Below, one piece after another: positions 7,118 to 32,404 of a stretch of 64,000 nucleotides of DNA. The notes under the pieces were generated by a model, which made no database searches, was not told where the DNA came from, and saw only the letters and a program-made list of their open reading frames with translations. The translations under genes were made by a program, and so were the position numbers. The stretch lies in assembly GCF_001263175.1 (NCBI RefSeq), contig NZ_CP012332.1:1671501-1735500 (forward strand), written 5' to 3'. This stretch comes from Vulgatibacter incomptus. Lineage in GTDB: Bacteria > Myxococcota > Myxococcia > Myxococcales > Vulgatibacteraceae. Each line of letters opens with the position of its first letter. The stretch's first letter is position 1.

Positions 7118-9506
<2,389 letters not shown>

Positions 9507-27164: not shown

Positions 27165-27827
27165 TCAGCCGAACTTGTAGATGTTCTCGACGGGGACGCC
27201 GCGGTAGCGATCGAGCTTCAGCGCGAGGCGCGCGAGGTCGTAGGCGAGCTCGGAGGACGAGGCCGTAGGGTCGGCCTTCTTCCGGCGCTTGGCCTCGGTG
27301 AGGATCGCCTTGCGGGCCTCCGCCGGGTGGTACAGGAAGTGACCGCTGAAGACGAGGTTGCCGTCGATCGGGAGCAGGCGCGCGTCGAGGATGTCGCCCT
27401 TCGAGAGGGCGACGAGGCCGCGGCGCTCCAGGATGTCGTAGTCGGTGCGGCTCACCACGTCGCGAACCTTGAGGCCGAGCTTGGTGCCGAGCTTCCGGAC
27501 CTCGAAGATCCCGTGGACGGAGCGCGTGAGCGCCTCGAAGGTCCCCAGCTCCTCGGGAGAGAGCGCGGCGCGGTTCGCCTCGAGGTACGCGGCGGCGGGC
27601 GGAGCGCCCGTGCCGTCCAGGGGGCGATCGAAGAGGAAATGCTCCACGAAGAGCGCCAGGCGCTGCTCGAAGGACCGATCCTCCTCGTGGGCCTCGCCGA
27701 TCCGCTCGAAGAATGCCGCCTTGGCGCGGAGGATCTCCTCCTGCCGATCGGGACCGGACGCCCACGCGAGCACTCTGTCGAGCTGCGGCTGGTACACGGT
27801 GTGGCCTTCCGAGAAGGGTCCCGTCAC
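27165..27827 (-). CDS. Hypothetical protein translationally coupled to carA
   Basis: 220 residues, starting with a GTG that overlaps the carA stop (GTGA), so translation is probably coupled. I do not recognise a family. The N-terminal half is helical and acidic/aromatic (RAKAAFFERIGEAHEEDRSFEQRLALFVEHFLFDR is interrupted by short breaks); the middle has IFEVRKLGTKLGLKVRDV, which looks like a small beta-domain, and LPIDGNLVFSGHFLYHP follows. No signal peptide or membrane segment. As last gene of a pyrB-pyrC-carA operon it might affect pyrimidine synthesis, but that is only context. Confidence 0.82.
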   Translation of the reverse strand: MTGPFSEGHTVYQPQLDRVLAWASGPDRQEEILRAKAAFFERIGEAHEEDRSFEQRLALFVEHFLFDRPLDGTGAPPAAAYLEANRAALSPEELGTFEALTRSVHGIFEVRKLGTKLGLKVRDVVSRTDYDILERRGLVALSKGDILDARLLPIDGNLVFSGHFLYHPAEARKAILTEAKRRKKADPTASSSELAYDLARLALKLDRYRGVPVENIYKFG

Positions 27828-28945
27828 GCCTGCGAGCGATCCGGAACCGGCGCCCCCTCCATCATGGCAGTGAACCGACCGAAGAGCGCCAGGGAATCGA
27901 GGGGTCCCGGCGCGGACTCCGGGTGGAACTGCACACCGATGGCACGGAAGGCCGGCAGCTCGATCCCCTCCACGCTGCCGTCGTGGACGGAAGAGTGGGT
28001 GACTGCAGCGCCGATCGCGCCCAGGCTCTCCGCGTCGACTGCGAAGGAGTGGCTCTGTCCGGTGATGGCGACCTTGCCGGTGGAGAGCTCCTTCACCGGG
28101 TAGTTGGCGCCGTGGTGCGGATGAACGAGGCGCTGCATCCGGGCGCCGGCGGCCTTCGCCAGGAGCTGGTGACCCAGGTTGACGCCGAGTATGGGGGTCT
28201 TGCCCAGGAGCGCCCGGACGGCGGCCTCCGCCTCGGAGAGGTCGGAGGGATCGCCGGGGCCGCCGGAGAGGACGATGCCGTCGGGCTGGAGCGCCAGCAC
28301 GTCGGCAGCGGTCGTCGTAAAGGGGACGACGGTGAGGCGGCAGCCCTGCTCGGCGAGCCGCCGCAGCAGGGAACGCTTCACGCCGAGGTCGTATACGACC
28401 ACGTGGAAGCGGCTCGCCCCTTCGGCCGGGAGCTCGTAGCGCACCTTCGTGCTCACCCGGGCGACGAGGCCGGTCGCAGGCGGAAGCGCCCTCGCCTTCT
28501 CCACCAGGGTCTTGGCGTCGGCGCCGTCGAGGGTGGAGAGCACGCCCCGCTTCGGACCGCCGTCGCGGATGTGCCGGATCAGCATGCGGGTGTCGATGCC
28601 CTCGATGCCAGGCGTGCCGTGGCTCGCGAGCCAGGGCTGCAGCGCCTCCTTCGCGAGGTGGCTGGAAGGAGCCAGCGCCACGTGCCGGGCGACGACGCCG
28701 GCGGCGTGGACGGTCGCGGACTCGAAGGCCACGTCGGTCACCCCGACGTTGCCGAGCTCGGGGTAGGCGAAGACCACGAGCTGGCCGGCGGATCCGGGAT
28801 CCGTGAGGATCTCCTGGTATCCGGTGGGAGAGGTCTGGAAGACCACCTCGCCGGCGGCCTCCGCCCGTGCGCCAAAGCCCGTCCCTTCGAAGACCGTCCC
28901 GTCTTCGAGGGCCAGGATCGCCTTGCCCGTAGAACCGTCCTTCAC
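27824..28945 (-). CDS. carA: Carbamoyl-phosphate synthase small (glutaminase) subunit, catalytic Cys replaced by Asn
   Basis: 373 residues, normal length. N-terminal CPSase small-chain domain (about 8-140) and C-terminal class I glutamine amidotransferase domain (about 180-365). The nucleophile motif, normally G[IV]C[LM]GHQ, reads GVNLGHQ: residue 256 is Asn (codon AAC at 28180-28178). The other triad residues, His341 and Glu343 in QFHPESAPG, are intact. The change needs two base substitutions from a Cys codon. GTG start overlapping the pyrC stop (GTGA) with AAGGAG upstream. It should pair with CarB, not in this window. It may channel free ammonia or be regulatory, rather than hydrolyse glutamine. 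Confidence 0.95.
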   Translation of the reverse strand: MKDGSTGKAILALEDGTVFEGTGFGARAEAAGEVVFQTSPTGYQEILTDPGSAGQLVVFAYPELGNVGVTDVAFESATVHAAGVVARHVALAPSSHLAKEALQPWLASHGTPGIEGIDTRMLIRHIRDGGPKRGVLSTLDGADAKTLVEKARALPPATGLVARVSTKVRYELPAEGASRFHVVVYDLGVKRSLLRRLAEQGCRLTVVPFTTTAADVLALQPDGIVLSGGPGDPSDLSEAEAAVRALLGKTPILGVNLGHQLLAKAAGARMQRLVHPHHGANYPVKELSTGKVAITGQSHSFAVDAESLGAIGAAVTHSSVHDGSVEGIELPAFRAIGVQFHPESAPGPLDSLALFGRFTAMMEGAPVPDRSQA

Positions 28946-30243
28946 CTGCCGCTCTCCTTGCTCTCGTACACGATCGCGCCGCCGACCAGGGTGAGGTCCA
29001 CCCTCCCGCGGAGCGTCCAACCTTCGAAGGGCGTGTAACGGCCCTTGCTCTCGAAGCGGGCCGGGTCGACCCGCCATTCCGCCTCGGGATCGACGATGGC
29101 CAGATCCGCCACCTCGCCCTCGGCCACCCTGCCCCCCGGCAGGCCGAAGGCCTTCGCCGGGCCGAGGCTCAGGAGCTCGACGGCGCGCATCAGCGAGATC
29201 GCGCCGCTCCGAACCAGGGCGAGGGTGAGCGGCAGCGCGGTCTCGAGGCCGACGATCCCGTTGGCGGCCCGCTCGAACTCGACGTCCTTCTCCACCGCCG
29301 AGTGGGGCGCGTGGTCGGTCGCGATGGCGTCGATGGTGCCGTCGGCGAGGCCCACGAGGACGGCGTCGACGTCGGCCTGCGTGCGGAGCGGCGGGCACAT
29401 CTTGGCCCGGGTGTCGTAGGTGCCGACCGCCTCGTCGGTGAGGGTGAAGTGGTGCGGCGTAGCCTCGGCGGTGACCCGAAGGCCTCGGCGCTTGGCGTCG
29501 CGCACCGCCCGGACCGAGCCGGCGGTAGATAGGTGGGCGATGTGCAGCCTGCCGCCCGTGAGGGCGCAGAGCTCGATGTCGCGGAGGACCATCGCGTCCT
29601 CGGCCACGTTCGGCGAGCCGCGGAGCCCGAGGCGGGTCGAGACCGCGCCCTCGTTCATGCAGCCGCCGGCGGCGAGGTGGAGATCCTCTTCGTGGACCAT
29701 CACGGGCAGGTCGAAGGTCTTGGCGTACTCGAGGGCGCGGCGCATCAGCGCCGGATCCATCACGGGCCTGCCGTCGTCCGTGATGCACACGGCGCCGGCC
29801 TGGACCATGTCGCCGATCTCCGCGAGGTCCTTGCCCTCCTGGCCCTTGGAGATGGCGCCGCTGGGATAGACCCTGGCGAGGCCGGCCTCGGCGGCGCGGT
29901 CGAGGACGAAGCGGACGAGGTGCGCGTTGTCGATCGGCGGCCGGGTGTTCGGCATCGCCACGACGGCGGTGAAGCCGCCGGCGACGGCCGACCGGGCGCC
30001 GGTGAGGATCGTCTCCTTGTACTCCTCGCCCGGCTCGCGCAGGTGGGCGTGGAGATCGATGAACCCCGGGAGCACGAGCTTCCCGGCGCAGTCGATGACC
30101 TTGACACCCTGGGTATTCGACGGGAGATCGGCCGAGATCGAGCGGATCCGCCCGTCGACGACGTGCACGGTGCGCACGCCATCGACGCCGGTGGCCGGAT
30201 CGAGGAGCCGGCCGTTCACGAGGAAGAGCTCGGACTGGCTCAT
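28942..30243 (-). CDS. pyrC: Dihydroorotase
   Basis: 433 residues, class I dihydroorotase length. Cyclises carbamoyl aspartate in pyrimidine synthesis. Motifs: VLPGFIDLHAHLREPG with the metal-binding HxH, VAMPNTRPPIDN, HIAHLSTAGS, and the catalytic Asp in ATDHAPH. The ATG at 30243 shares a base with the pyrB stop (TGATG), and the stop overlaps the carA start, so pyrB-pyrC-carA is tightly coupled. Confidence 0.97.
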   Translation of the reverse strand: MSQSELFLVNGRLLDPATGVDGVRTVHVVDGRIRSISADLPSNTQGVKVIDCAGKLVLPGFIDLHAHLREPGEEYKETILTGARSAVAGGFTAVVAMPNTRPPIDNAHLVRFVLDRAAEAGLARVYPSGAISKGQEGKDLAEIGDMVQAGAVCITDDGRPVMDPALMRRALEYAKTFDLPVMVHEEDLHLAAGGCMNEGAVSTRLGLRGSPNVAEDAMVLRDIELCALTGGRLHIAHLSTAGSVRAVRDAKRRGLRVTAEATPHHFTLTDEAVGTYDTRAKMCPPLRTQADVDAVLVGLADGTIDAIATDHAPHSAVEKDVEFERAANGIVGLETALPLTLALVRSGAISLMRAVELLSLGPAKAFGLPGGRVAEGEVADLAIVDPEAEWRVDPARFESKGRYTPFEGWTLRGRVDLTLVGGAIVYESKESGR

Positions 30244-31166
30244 CACGCCACCCCGCCGGCTAGGAGCTGGAGGATCGCCATTCGCACCGCGACACCGTTT
30301 TCCACCTGATCGAGGATCACGCTCCGCTCCCCGTCGGCGACCTCGGGCTCGAGCTCGACGCCGCGGTTGATCGGCCCGGGGTGGAGGATCAGCGCGTCGT
30401 CCTTCAGCCACGACGTCTTGGCCTGGGAGAGGCCGTAGAGCTTCGAGTACTCGCGGGTCGACGGGAAGAGGCTCCCGGCGATCCGCTCGTTCTGGATCCG
30501 GAGCATCATCACGGCGTCGGCGCCGGTCACGGCCTCGCGGAGGTCGAAGGTCGTGTCGCAGCCGAGCGCTTCGATCCCGATGGGGATCATGGTCGGCGGG
30601 CCGCAGAGGCGCACCCGCGCCCCGAGCTTGCGGAGGCAGTAGATGTTCGAGCGGGCGACGCGGCTGTGCCGGATGTCGCCGACGATCGCCACGGTCCGGC
30701 CCTCGAGGGATCCCCAGCGCTCACGGAGCGTGAACGCGTCCAGGAGCGCCTGGGATGGGTGCTCGTGGGCGCCATCCCCGGCGTTCACCACGGCGCAGCC
30801 GACGCGGGAGGCCACGAGGTGGGGCGCCCCCGACGCCGCGTGACGGATCACGAGGATGTCGGGCCGCATGGCCTCGAGGTTCTTCGCCGTGTCGATCAGG
30901 CTCTCGCCCTTGCTCACGGACGACCCCGACGAGGACCAGTTCACCGCGTCGGCGGAGAGGATCTTCGCCGCGATCTCGAAGCTGGAACGAGTCCGGGTCG
31001 AGCTCTCGAAGAAACAGTTGATGACCGTCTTTCCGCGAAGGGCCGGGGACTTTTTCAAGTCCTGCCGGAGCAGCTCCTTCATCGAGACGGCGAGGCCTAA
31101 GATCTCCTCGATCTCGGCCCTTTCCAAAGGCTCGATACCGAGCAGGTGCTTGCGCGCGAGGGTCAT
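30243..31166 (-). CDS. pyrB: Aspartate carbamoyltransferase catalytic subunit
   Basis: 307 residues. Condenses carbamoyl phosphate with aspartate. The carbamoyl-phosphate site [10 protein letters not shown] and the downstream [11 protein letters not shown] and [12 protein letters not shown] motifs are clear. I choose the ATG at 31166 because it gives the family start ([14 protein letters not shown]) and because a promoter lies just before it; an open frame 18 codons longer would include that promoter. No Shine-Dalgarno sequence is seen, so the mRNA may be leaderless. First gene of the pyrimidine operon. No pyrI-like gene is present. Confidence 0.97.
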
Positions 31167-31178
31167 GCTGGAGGCGGA

Positions 31179-31207
31179 CCTATAGCCTACCTTCCCGACC
31201 GGTTCAA
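31179..31207 (-). promoter_or_regulatory. Promoter of the pyrBC-carA operon, apparently leaderless
   Basis: TTGAAC (31207-31202), 17-base spacer, TATAGG (31184-31179). The -10 box ends 12 bases before the ATG at 31166, leaving a leader of only a few bases. No attenuator is visible. Confidence 0.7.
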
Positions 31208-31264
31208 TGTACTCTTCCACACTCGCCTACACGAATTCTCGCGCCCCGGCCCGATCGAGCCGGA

Positions 31265-32404
31265 TCAGAGCCAGCGCCGCAGGCGCCACACGATCCACGA
31301 GACGATCTGGTTCAGCAAGGGCCGCACCCTCAGGTCGCGGAGGACGACCTCGCCGCAGCTCTCGAGATCCTCCGCGAACATCCGCTCGAGGTCGCAGGCA
31401 AAGGCCTCGTCCTCGACGATGGCGTTGGCCTCGAGGTTCATGCGGATGGAGAGGGTGTCGAGGTTCATCGAGCCCACGGTGCTCCAACGCCCGTCGATCA
31501 CGGCGGTCTTGGCGTGGAGCACCCGGCCGTGCCACTCGTAGATCCGCACGCCGGCCCGCAGCAGCCCGCCGTAGAAGCCCTGGCTGGCGAATCGGATCGC
31601 GGGCACGTCGGTGGTTCCGGCGACGATCAAGTCCACCCGGACCCCGCGCCGAGCGGCGTTCTTCAGGGCACGGAGGATCCGGGGCGTGGGCACGAAGTAG
31701 GCGTTCGTGATCCGGATGCGGTCCTCGGCGCTCTTGAAGGCTTCGAGGTAGGCTTTGCGCAGCAACTTGAGCTCGCGCCGAAGGCCGTTGCCGAGGATCT
31801 TCACCTTGGGGTCGGGGCGCCGCCCCTCGTGCCGGTACCGCGTCGGGTCGAGGTGCGCCCCGCCCTCCCTCATCCAGACGTACAGGAAGAAGGCCAGGAG
31901 CTCGTAGGCCGCCGGCCCCTCGAGGCGGAGGTGGGTGTCGCGCCAACCGCCCCCGCCGTCCTTCAGCGGGGCGTAGTCGTCCGCGATGTTGACCCCGCCG
32001 GTGAAGCCCACCTCCTTGTCGACCACGAGGATCTTCCGGTGGTCCCTTCGGAGATAGCCGCCAACGGTGCTCGCGAGCCTCGACTTGAGCCGGAAGGGCC
32101 GGAAGGCCACCACCCGCACGCCTCCCTCGCGCAGCCGGCGGAGATAGTCCGACGACACGGACGATCCCCACGCGTCGTAGAGGAGGTTCACCTCCACGCC
32201 GTCCCGGGCCCGCTCGATCAGCGCCTCGGCGAAGCGCTCGCCGGTTCGGTCGGAGCGGAGGATGTAGGTGGAGAGGCAGATCGTCGATCGGGCCTTCGCG
32301 ATGGCGTCCAGCATCGCCGCGTAGGTCTGCTCCCCGTCCCTCAGGAGGGCCAGGCGGTGCGTCCCGACCGCTCGCTGGGCGTAGACCTCGGACGGGCTTT
32401 CCAT
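31265..32404 (-). CDS. Phospholipase D/cardiolipin synthase family protein
   Basis: 379 residues with two HKD motifs: HRKILVVD (His122, Lys124, Asp129) and HAKTAVID near residue 303, the latter followed by GSMNLD. Two-HKD proteins of this length make cardiolipin from phosphatidylglycerol (ClsB-like) or act as phospholipases. No N-terminal membrane helices are seen; the C-terminus is basic and Trp-rich (SWIVWRLRRWL). The ATG at 32404 has GGAG three bases before it. Last gene of a lepA-lepB-lepB-membrane protein-cls row, all on one strand with small gaps. Confidence 0.92.
   Translation of the reverse strand: MESPSEVYAQRAVGTHRLALLRDGEQTYAAMLDAIAKARSTICLSTYILRSDRTGERFAEALIERARDGVEVNLLYDAWGSSVSSDYLRRLREGGVRVVAFRPFRLKSRLASTVGGYLRRDHRKILVVDKEVGFTGGVNIADDYAPLKDGGGGWRDTHLRLEGPAAYELLAFFLYVWMREGGAHLDPTRYRHEGRRPDPKVKILGNGLRRELKLLRKAYLEAFKSAEDRIRITNAYFVPTPRILRALKNAARRGVRVDLIVAGTTDVPAIRFASQGFYGGLLRAGVRIYEWHGRVLHAKTAVIDGRWSTVGSMNLDTLSIRMNLEANAIVEDEAFACDLERMFAEDLESCGEVVLRDLRVRPLLNQIVSWIVWRLRRWL

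Follow-up and report, generated by a model that had tools for sequence, protein, structure and literature searches.

What does the small subunit of a carbamoyl-phosphate synthetase (CPSase) do once its glutaminase site has lost the nucleophilic cysteine? The question is raised by a carA gene (carA1) in a 64,000-nucleotide stretch of the genome of the soil bacterium Vulgatibacter incomptus (hereafter the window), whose product, CarA1, has Asn at residue 256, within L-G-V-N-L-G-H-Q, and has both His341 and Glu343 in QFHPE. The genes pyrB, pyrC, carA1 and an unnamed gene follow one another on the minus strand with successive short overlaps of a few bases (Table 1). The preliminary description of this locus had read codon 256 as AAC in GVNLGHQ with His341 and Glu343 retained, and its frame, coordinates and residues were all correct, as was its statement that AAC lies at least two substitutions from any Cys codon, which holds for both of them.

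Table 1 Features of the carA1 locus, in positions of the window
Feature	Position	Strand	Evidence and remarks
carA paralogue (CarA1, putative pseudo-glutaminase small subunit)	27824..28945	-	373 aa; ORF and translation, PF00988, PF00117, TIGR01368; start codon GTG at 28945, overlapping the pyrC stop (GTGA); gene end 27824
Asn256 codon AAC, replacing the catalytic Cys (E. coli Cys269)	28178..28180	-	Translation and alignment
DPGSA, equivalents of E. coli Ser47 (to Gly) and Tyr48 (to Ser)	28787..28801	-	Conserved-column comparison
QSHSF, equivalents of E. coli Asn311 and Gly313 (each Ser)	28043..28057	-	Conserved-column comparison
QFHPE, His341 and Glu343 kept (E. coli His353, Glu355)	27917..27931	-	Alignment
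pyrC (dihydroorotase)	28942..30243	-	433 aa; upstream of carA1 in one operon
pyrB (aspartate carbamoyltransferase)	30243..31220	-	Start GTG 31220 or ATG 31166
Unnamed 220-aa gene	27165..27827	-	4-base overlap with the carA1 end; immediately follows carA in almost every Myxococcia locus checked
Phospholipase D-like protein	31265..32404	-	PLDc_2, two domains; directly upstream of pyrB

By domain order and full-length fold, CarA1 is a CPSase small subunit. PF00988 (CPSase_sm_chain, 147 bits against a cut-off of 27) is followed by PF00117 (GATase, 143.6 bits against a cut-off of 22.8), and the predicted structure (pLDDT 88.9) matched E. coli CarA with a TM score of 0.91–0.93 and human CPS1 with about 0.87. 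CarA1 also scored 391.8 against TIGR01368 (cut-off 307), a model that labels it glutamine-hydrolysing and is here an annotation trap. The position of Asn256 was occupied by Cys in 139 of 151 aligned CarA rows, by Asn in 3 and by Gly in 9, and Asn256 stands where the nucleophilic Cys of GICLGHQ is expected. We take the glutamine site of E. coli CPSase to include Ser47, Cys269, Asn311 and Gly313; beside the lost Cys269, CarA1 has Gly, Ser and Ser at the other three positions, and the catalytic His and Glu are in place.

We defined a near-invariant set of 83 columns, each at least 97% conserved across the 139 Cys-bearing CarA sequences. CarA1 differed at 13 of these and kept 70, against a mean of 0.7 changes among the Cys rows. 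The changes are centred on the glutamine site and include, in E. coli numbering, S47G, Y48S, C269N, G289P, N311S and G313S; K202, L270, Q273, H353, E355, G359 and P360 are retained. A protein without the Cys would form no thioester with glutamine, and with the pocket residues changed CarA1 is unlikely to bind glutamine well. That it has lost glutaminase activity, as had been proposed, is well supported by the absence of the nucleophile together with several glutamine-site residues. With a glutaminase-like domain that lacks the nucleophile, CarA1 matches what is expected of an ammonia-dependent, CPS I-like CPSase; it differs from CPS I proper, which has its small and large parts in one chain, in that the genes are separate.

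A sequencing error at Asn256 was ruled out by the two-base change and the further losses in the glutamine site; 12 more near-invariant columns are altered in CarA1, and none in CarA2, the other CarA of this genome (below), which bears out the earlier exclusion of a single base error. A Cys at a shifted position, sought as a substitute nucleophile, was likewise ruled out, since the sole Cys of CarA1 is C202 (QGCRL), an invariant alignment position distant in sequence from the glutamine site.

CarA1 is not the only CarA of this organism. The genome of V. incomptus, described as smaller than 5 Mb (PMC12093494), is a single contig of 4,350,553 bases (G000) with two CarA and two intact carB in total. 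A second carA (carA2; L001/L116) lies at 2.199 Mb, 0.5 Mb from carA1 and directly downstream of carB2 (the pair at about 2.196–2.200 Mb), with GICLGHQ, QNHGF and HPE intact. CarA2 and CarA1 are paralogues, 57% identical, but CarA2 has the Cys, NHG, HPE, an adjoining carB and no change in the 83 near-invariant columns. Glutamine-dependent carbamoyl-phosphate synthesis has therefore probably been kept in the cell, judging from a Cys-bearing CarA2 beside its own carB. A complete second carA with Cys was what the preliminary description had named as speaking against its reading, and genome-wide it does: glutaminase loss stands for CarA1, and the implied consequence for the cell is not supported, since carA2 keeps the Cys.

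Synteny and phylogeny tell how this arrangement may have come about. Among the Myxococcia loci read (L157–L174, L176), almost all had pyrB-pyrC, then carA, then a homologue of the unnamed gene, and nearly all sampled relatives had Cys at this ancestral pyrB-pyrC-carA site. The order was pyrB-pyrC-carA-unnamed-carB-greA in a member of another order of Myxococcia (G145), and greA followed carB in 10 of 10 f3 genomes read (L178–L187), as it does carB1, which lies at 1.073 Mb, 0.62 Mb from carA1, so that carA1 and carB1 are not adjacent. Because carA is syntenic with pyrB-pyrC and carB with greA, we place carA1 and carB1 in the ancestral positions and regard carB2-carA2 as a relocated pair. CarB1 and CarB2 were 78% identical, had 2 and 4 of 291 conserved columns changed, respectively, and formed a strongly supported group with the CarB of a genome of the same family (G144), the two copies evolving at equal rates (branches 0.22 for CarB1 and 0.20 for CarB2), which indicates that carB was duplicated within the family. 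A sister relation of CarA1 and CarA2 was not rejected (p-AU 0.44), and CarA1 appears to be the copy that changed after a duplication from which two intact carB also remain. G144 had one carB, with greA (L294, contig 27), in an assembly that is 92% complete; it yielded no PF00988 match, and no convincing pyrB-pyrC locus in the 0.6 Mb of contigs inspected, so that its lack of CarA could reflect an assembly gap or a real loss.

Comparison of CarA homologues in relatives, as the preliminary description had advised, and in other bacteria revealed loss of the nucleophile in unrelated lineages, with a minimum count of at least five changes on a 64-row CarA tree. Edaphobacillus lindanitolerans (L102, G147; gene 7980–9104) and a sister genome (G281, L175:8441–9562) had GINLGHQ and QFNPE in a complete pyrR-P-B-C-carA-carB-K-D-F-E operon. 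This is a separate change from Cys to Asn, which shares with that of CarA1 its place in a pyrimidine operon; in contrast to CarA1, it affects the only CarA found (one CarA and one CarB in each genome), and the catalytic His has also become Asn. Edaphobacillus carA is under purifying selection (dN 0.07, dS 0.64 and dN/dS 0.11 between the two genomes, with dN/dS 0.12 for pyrB and 0.07 for pyrC; NG86 here and below). In genus g39, which belongs to the order of V. incomptus and has small genomes (G126–G128; L259, L171, L260), G-I/M-GLGYQ and QFQP reveal that all three triad residues, Cys, His and Glu, are gone. Each of these genomes had a single CarA match and one CarB, and dN/dS of carA across the three was 0.07–0.10, again indicating purifying selection.

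In Bacillota, 7 of 399 genomes shared a Gly type (FGI/VGLGHQ and QFDPE, the catalytic His being replaced by Asp), encoded in pyrR-pyrB-pyrC-carA-carB-pyrK(-pyrD) operons (L263–L269). The equivalent of E. coli Pro360 is Tyr in this clade. An extra Cys CarA was found in four of its genomes (G688, G758, G779, G821), and no further Cys CarA in the other three (G614, G663, G712). Another Gly-type CarA was present in each of G694 and G484. That of G484 (L262:4639-9976), a genome that also has two Cys CarA, is an arginine-linked exception: it lies in a carA-carB-argF-like locus without pyr genes, so that the link of nucleophile-less CarA to pyrimidine operons is common, not universal. A search pattern that allowed any codon not beginning with T at the Cys position was too noisy; once extended by the Phe codon before that position, it gave clean matches in Bacillota, with CarA confirmed in 10 of the 14 genomes matched. 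The extended pattern also matched 22 of 399 genomes of Pseudomonadota, none of the matches being CarA. Because Ser (TCN) and sites flanked by other residues escape such patterns, the frequencies are lower bounds.

Where the loss recurs under selection, and most of all where no second CarA was found, the simplest reading would be a solution like that of CPS I, and CarA1-type proteins are most likely pseudo-glutaminase subunits of ammonia-fed CPSases, a putative bacterial parallel to animal CPS I. The CPSase large subunit alone makes carbamoyl phosphate from ammonia. Human CPS1 has Ser in place of the Cys and uses only ammonia (PMC4655335, PMC7657897); the ammonia is believed to take a different route into the enzyme (PMC4655335). 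Like CarA1, it has a glutaminase-like fold without the nucleophile (Ser294 in CPS1) and with other changes in the glutamine site; however, CPS1 works in the urea cycle as one chain of 1500 residues that N-acetylglutamate activates, whereas CarA1 is a separate 373-aa subunit from a bacterial pyrimidine operon, with Asn for Cys, whose ammonia use is putative. E. coli CarA and its C269S variant (PDB 1c30) resemble CarA1 in subunit, fold and length and in keeping the triad His and Glu. The E. coli wild type nevertheless uses glutamine, and C269S is one laboratory change, whereas CarA1 lost the Cys in nature and has S47G, Y48S, N311S and G313S besides.

In the history that we propose, the small and large subunits would have been duplicated in a Vulgatibacter-like lineage; the relocated CarB2–CarA2 pair would have kept its glutaminase, and CarA1, at the ancestral pyrB-pyrC site, would have kept the fold while its nucleophile and glutamine pocket were lost. 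CarA1 would dock on a large subunit, probably CarB1, whose gene is orthologous to carB of the ancestral carB-greA locus, and hold it in a working conformation. The large subunit so bound would take free ammonia for pyrimidine synthesis, much as with the inert glutaminase domain of animal CPS I, and labour might be divided between the CarA1 and CarA2 enzymes. We give an even chance to this account of CarA1 as a pseudo-glutaminase that docks, probably on CarB1, and enables the use of free ammonia for pyrimidines, and no better because CarA2 leaves room for decay or for a structural role. Further points count against it: the ammonia concentrations that E. coli CPSase needs are very high and probably non-physiological (PMC6245113), and carA1, whose product has a long branch in the CarA tree, does not adjoin carB1. 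Ammonia use and a structural role, the alternatives offered in the preliminary description, are not separable by sequence, and we favour the former because nucleophile loss recurs under purifying selection where no other CarA was found.

CarA1 could instead be a decaying duplicate, its glutaminase lost by drift after CarA2 took over and the gene persisting through recency or translational coupling. An active-looking CarA2 is present, which means that CarA1 need not do anything; the CarA1 branch is twice that of CarA2 (1.08 versus 0.50), and the losses are concentrated in the part that CarA2 renders redundant. However, the reading frame is full length and coupled to pyrC, GC3 is 89.5% (88% in pyrC), and the differences of CarA1 from the consensus still climb with site variability (16, 22, 45 and 70% over four conservation bins), the bulk of the near-invariant columns being kept. 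These features and the confident predicted fold argue against old neutral decay and are still compatible with a recent relaxation; they come from one genome of the genus, in which constraint after the loss is not directly measurable. The same loss recurs under purifying selection in lineages where only one CarA was found, and we consider decay unlikely, although it fares best among the competing explanations.

We are also doubtful that CarA1 has a structural or regulatory role, stabilizing CarB or a complex of pyrimidine enzymes or competing with CarA2, with no physiological ammonia-fed synthesis. Such a role would fit a protein that keeps its fold and loses its active site in a genome offering two CarB partners, and there is precedent beside aspartate carbamoyltransferase (ATCase) for inactive paralogues that serve structurally, class A ATCase occurring with active or inactive dihydroorotase (PMC6022934). 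Yet in Edaphobacillus and g39 no CarA other than the nucleophile-less one was found, and each genome has a single CarB, so that this CarA must permit synthesis there if the pathway works.

Some Bacillota carry an orphan Cys CarA whose surroundings suggest small subunits exchanged to match nitrogen supply. G688 and G821 each had one CarB found, beside the Gly CarA, and a second, orphan Cys CarA; the orphan adjoins glutamate synthase or glutamine synthetase genes in G688, G758 and G484 and two ammonium-transporter-like genes in G779, the neighbours being named by inspection of their sequences. No carB lay near the orphan Cys-type carA at four loci (L270, L271, L273, L274). That CarA1 and CarA2 are likewise interchangeable on either CarB, expression setting whether a glutamine-using or an ammonia-using enzyme results, is very improbable, as the Cys-bearing CarA2 of V. 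incomptus has its own adjacent CarB and sharing is not needed, and the Bacillota genomes may be incomplete and the subunit exchange in them is hypothetical.

Returning to ammonia-fed synthesis, a broader proposal is more tentative than the account of CarA1 itself: ammonia-fed, CPS I-like CPSases may have arisen many times in bacteria through inactivation of the CarA glutaminase, for the most part within pyrimidine operons, and some bacteria may pair one CarB with both an inert, pyrimidine-linked CarA and a Cys CarA linked to nitrogen assimilation, switching nitrogen source by choice of subunit. According to a recent review, glutamine is the physiological donor for every bacterial CPSase, and the reaction of the E. 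coli enzyme with ammonia is probably irrelevant (PMC6245113). Repeated natural losses of the CarA nucleophile, maintained by selection and affecting in some genomes the only CarA found, argue against that generalization, and they provide several independent natural enzymes for testing the switch from glutamine to ammonia known from animal CPS I. A literature search found no report of a natural bacterial CarA without the nucleophile, which is weak evidence, most subscription papers being outside its scope.

Scans of the pyr operon in the window for promoters and Rfam families gave no matches. The phospholipase D-like gene was not found upstream of pyrB in the pyr loci of relatives. The unnamed 220-aa gene, which had no Pfam or NCBIfam match, is probably part of the pyrimidine operon. 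Its product was 34–50% identical among Myxococcia pyr loci, and in G145 the gene lies between carA and carB.
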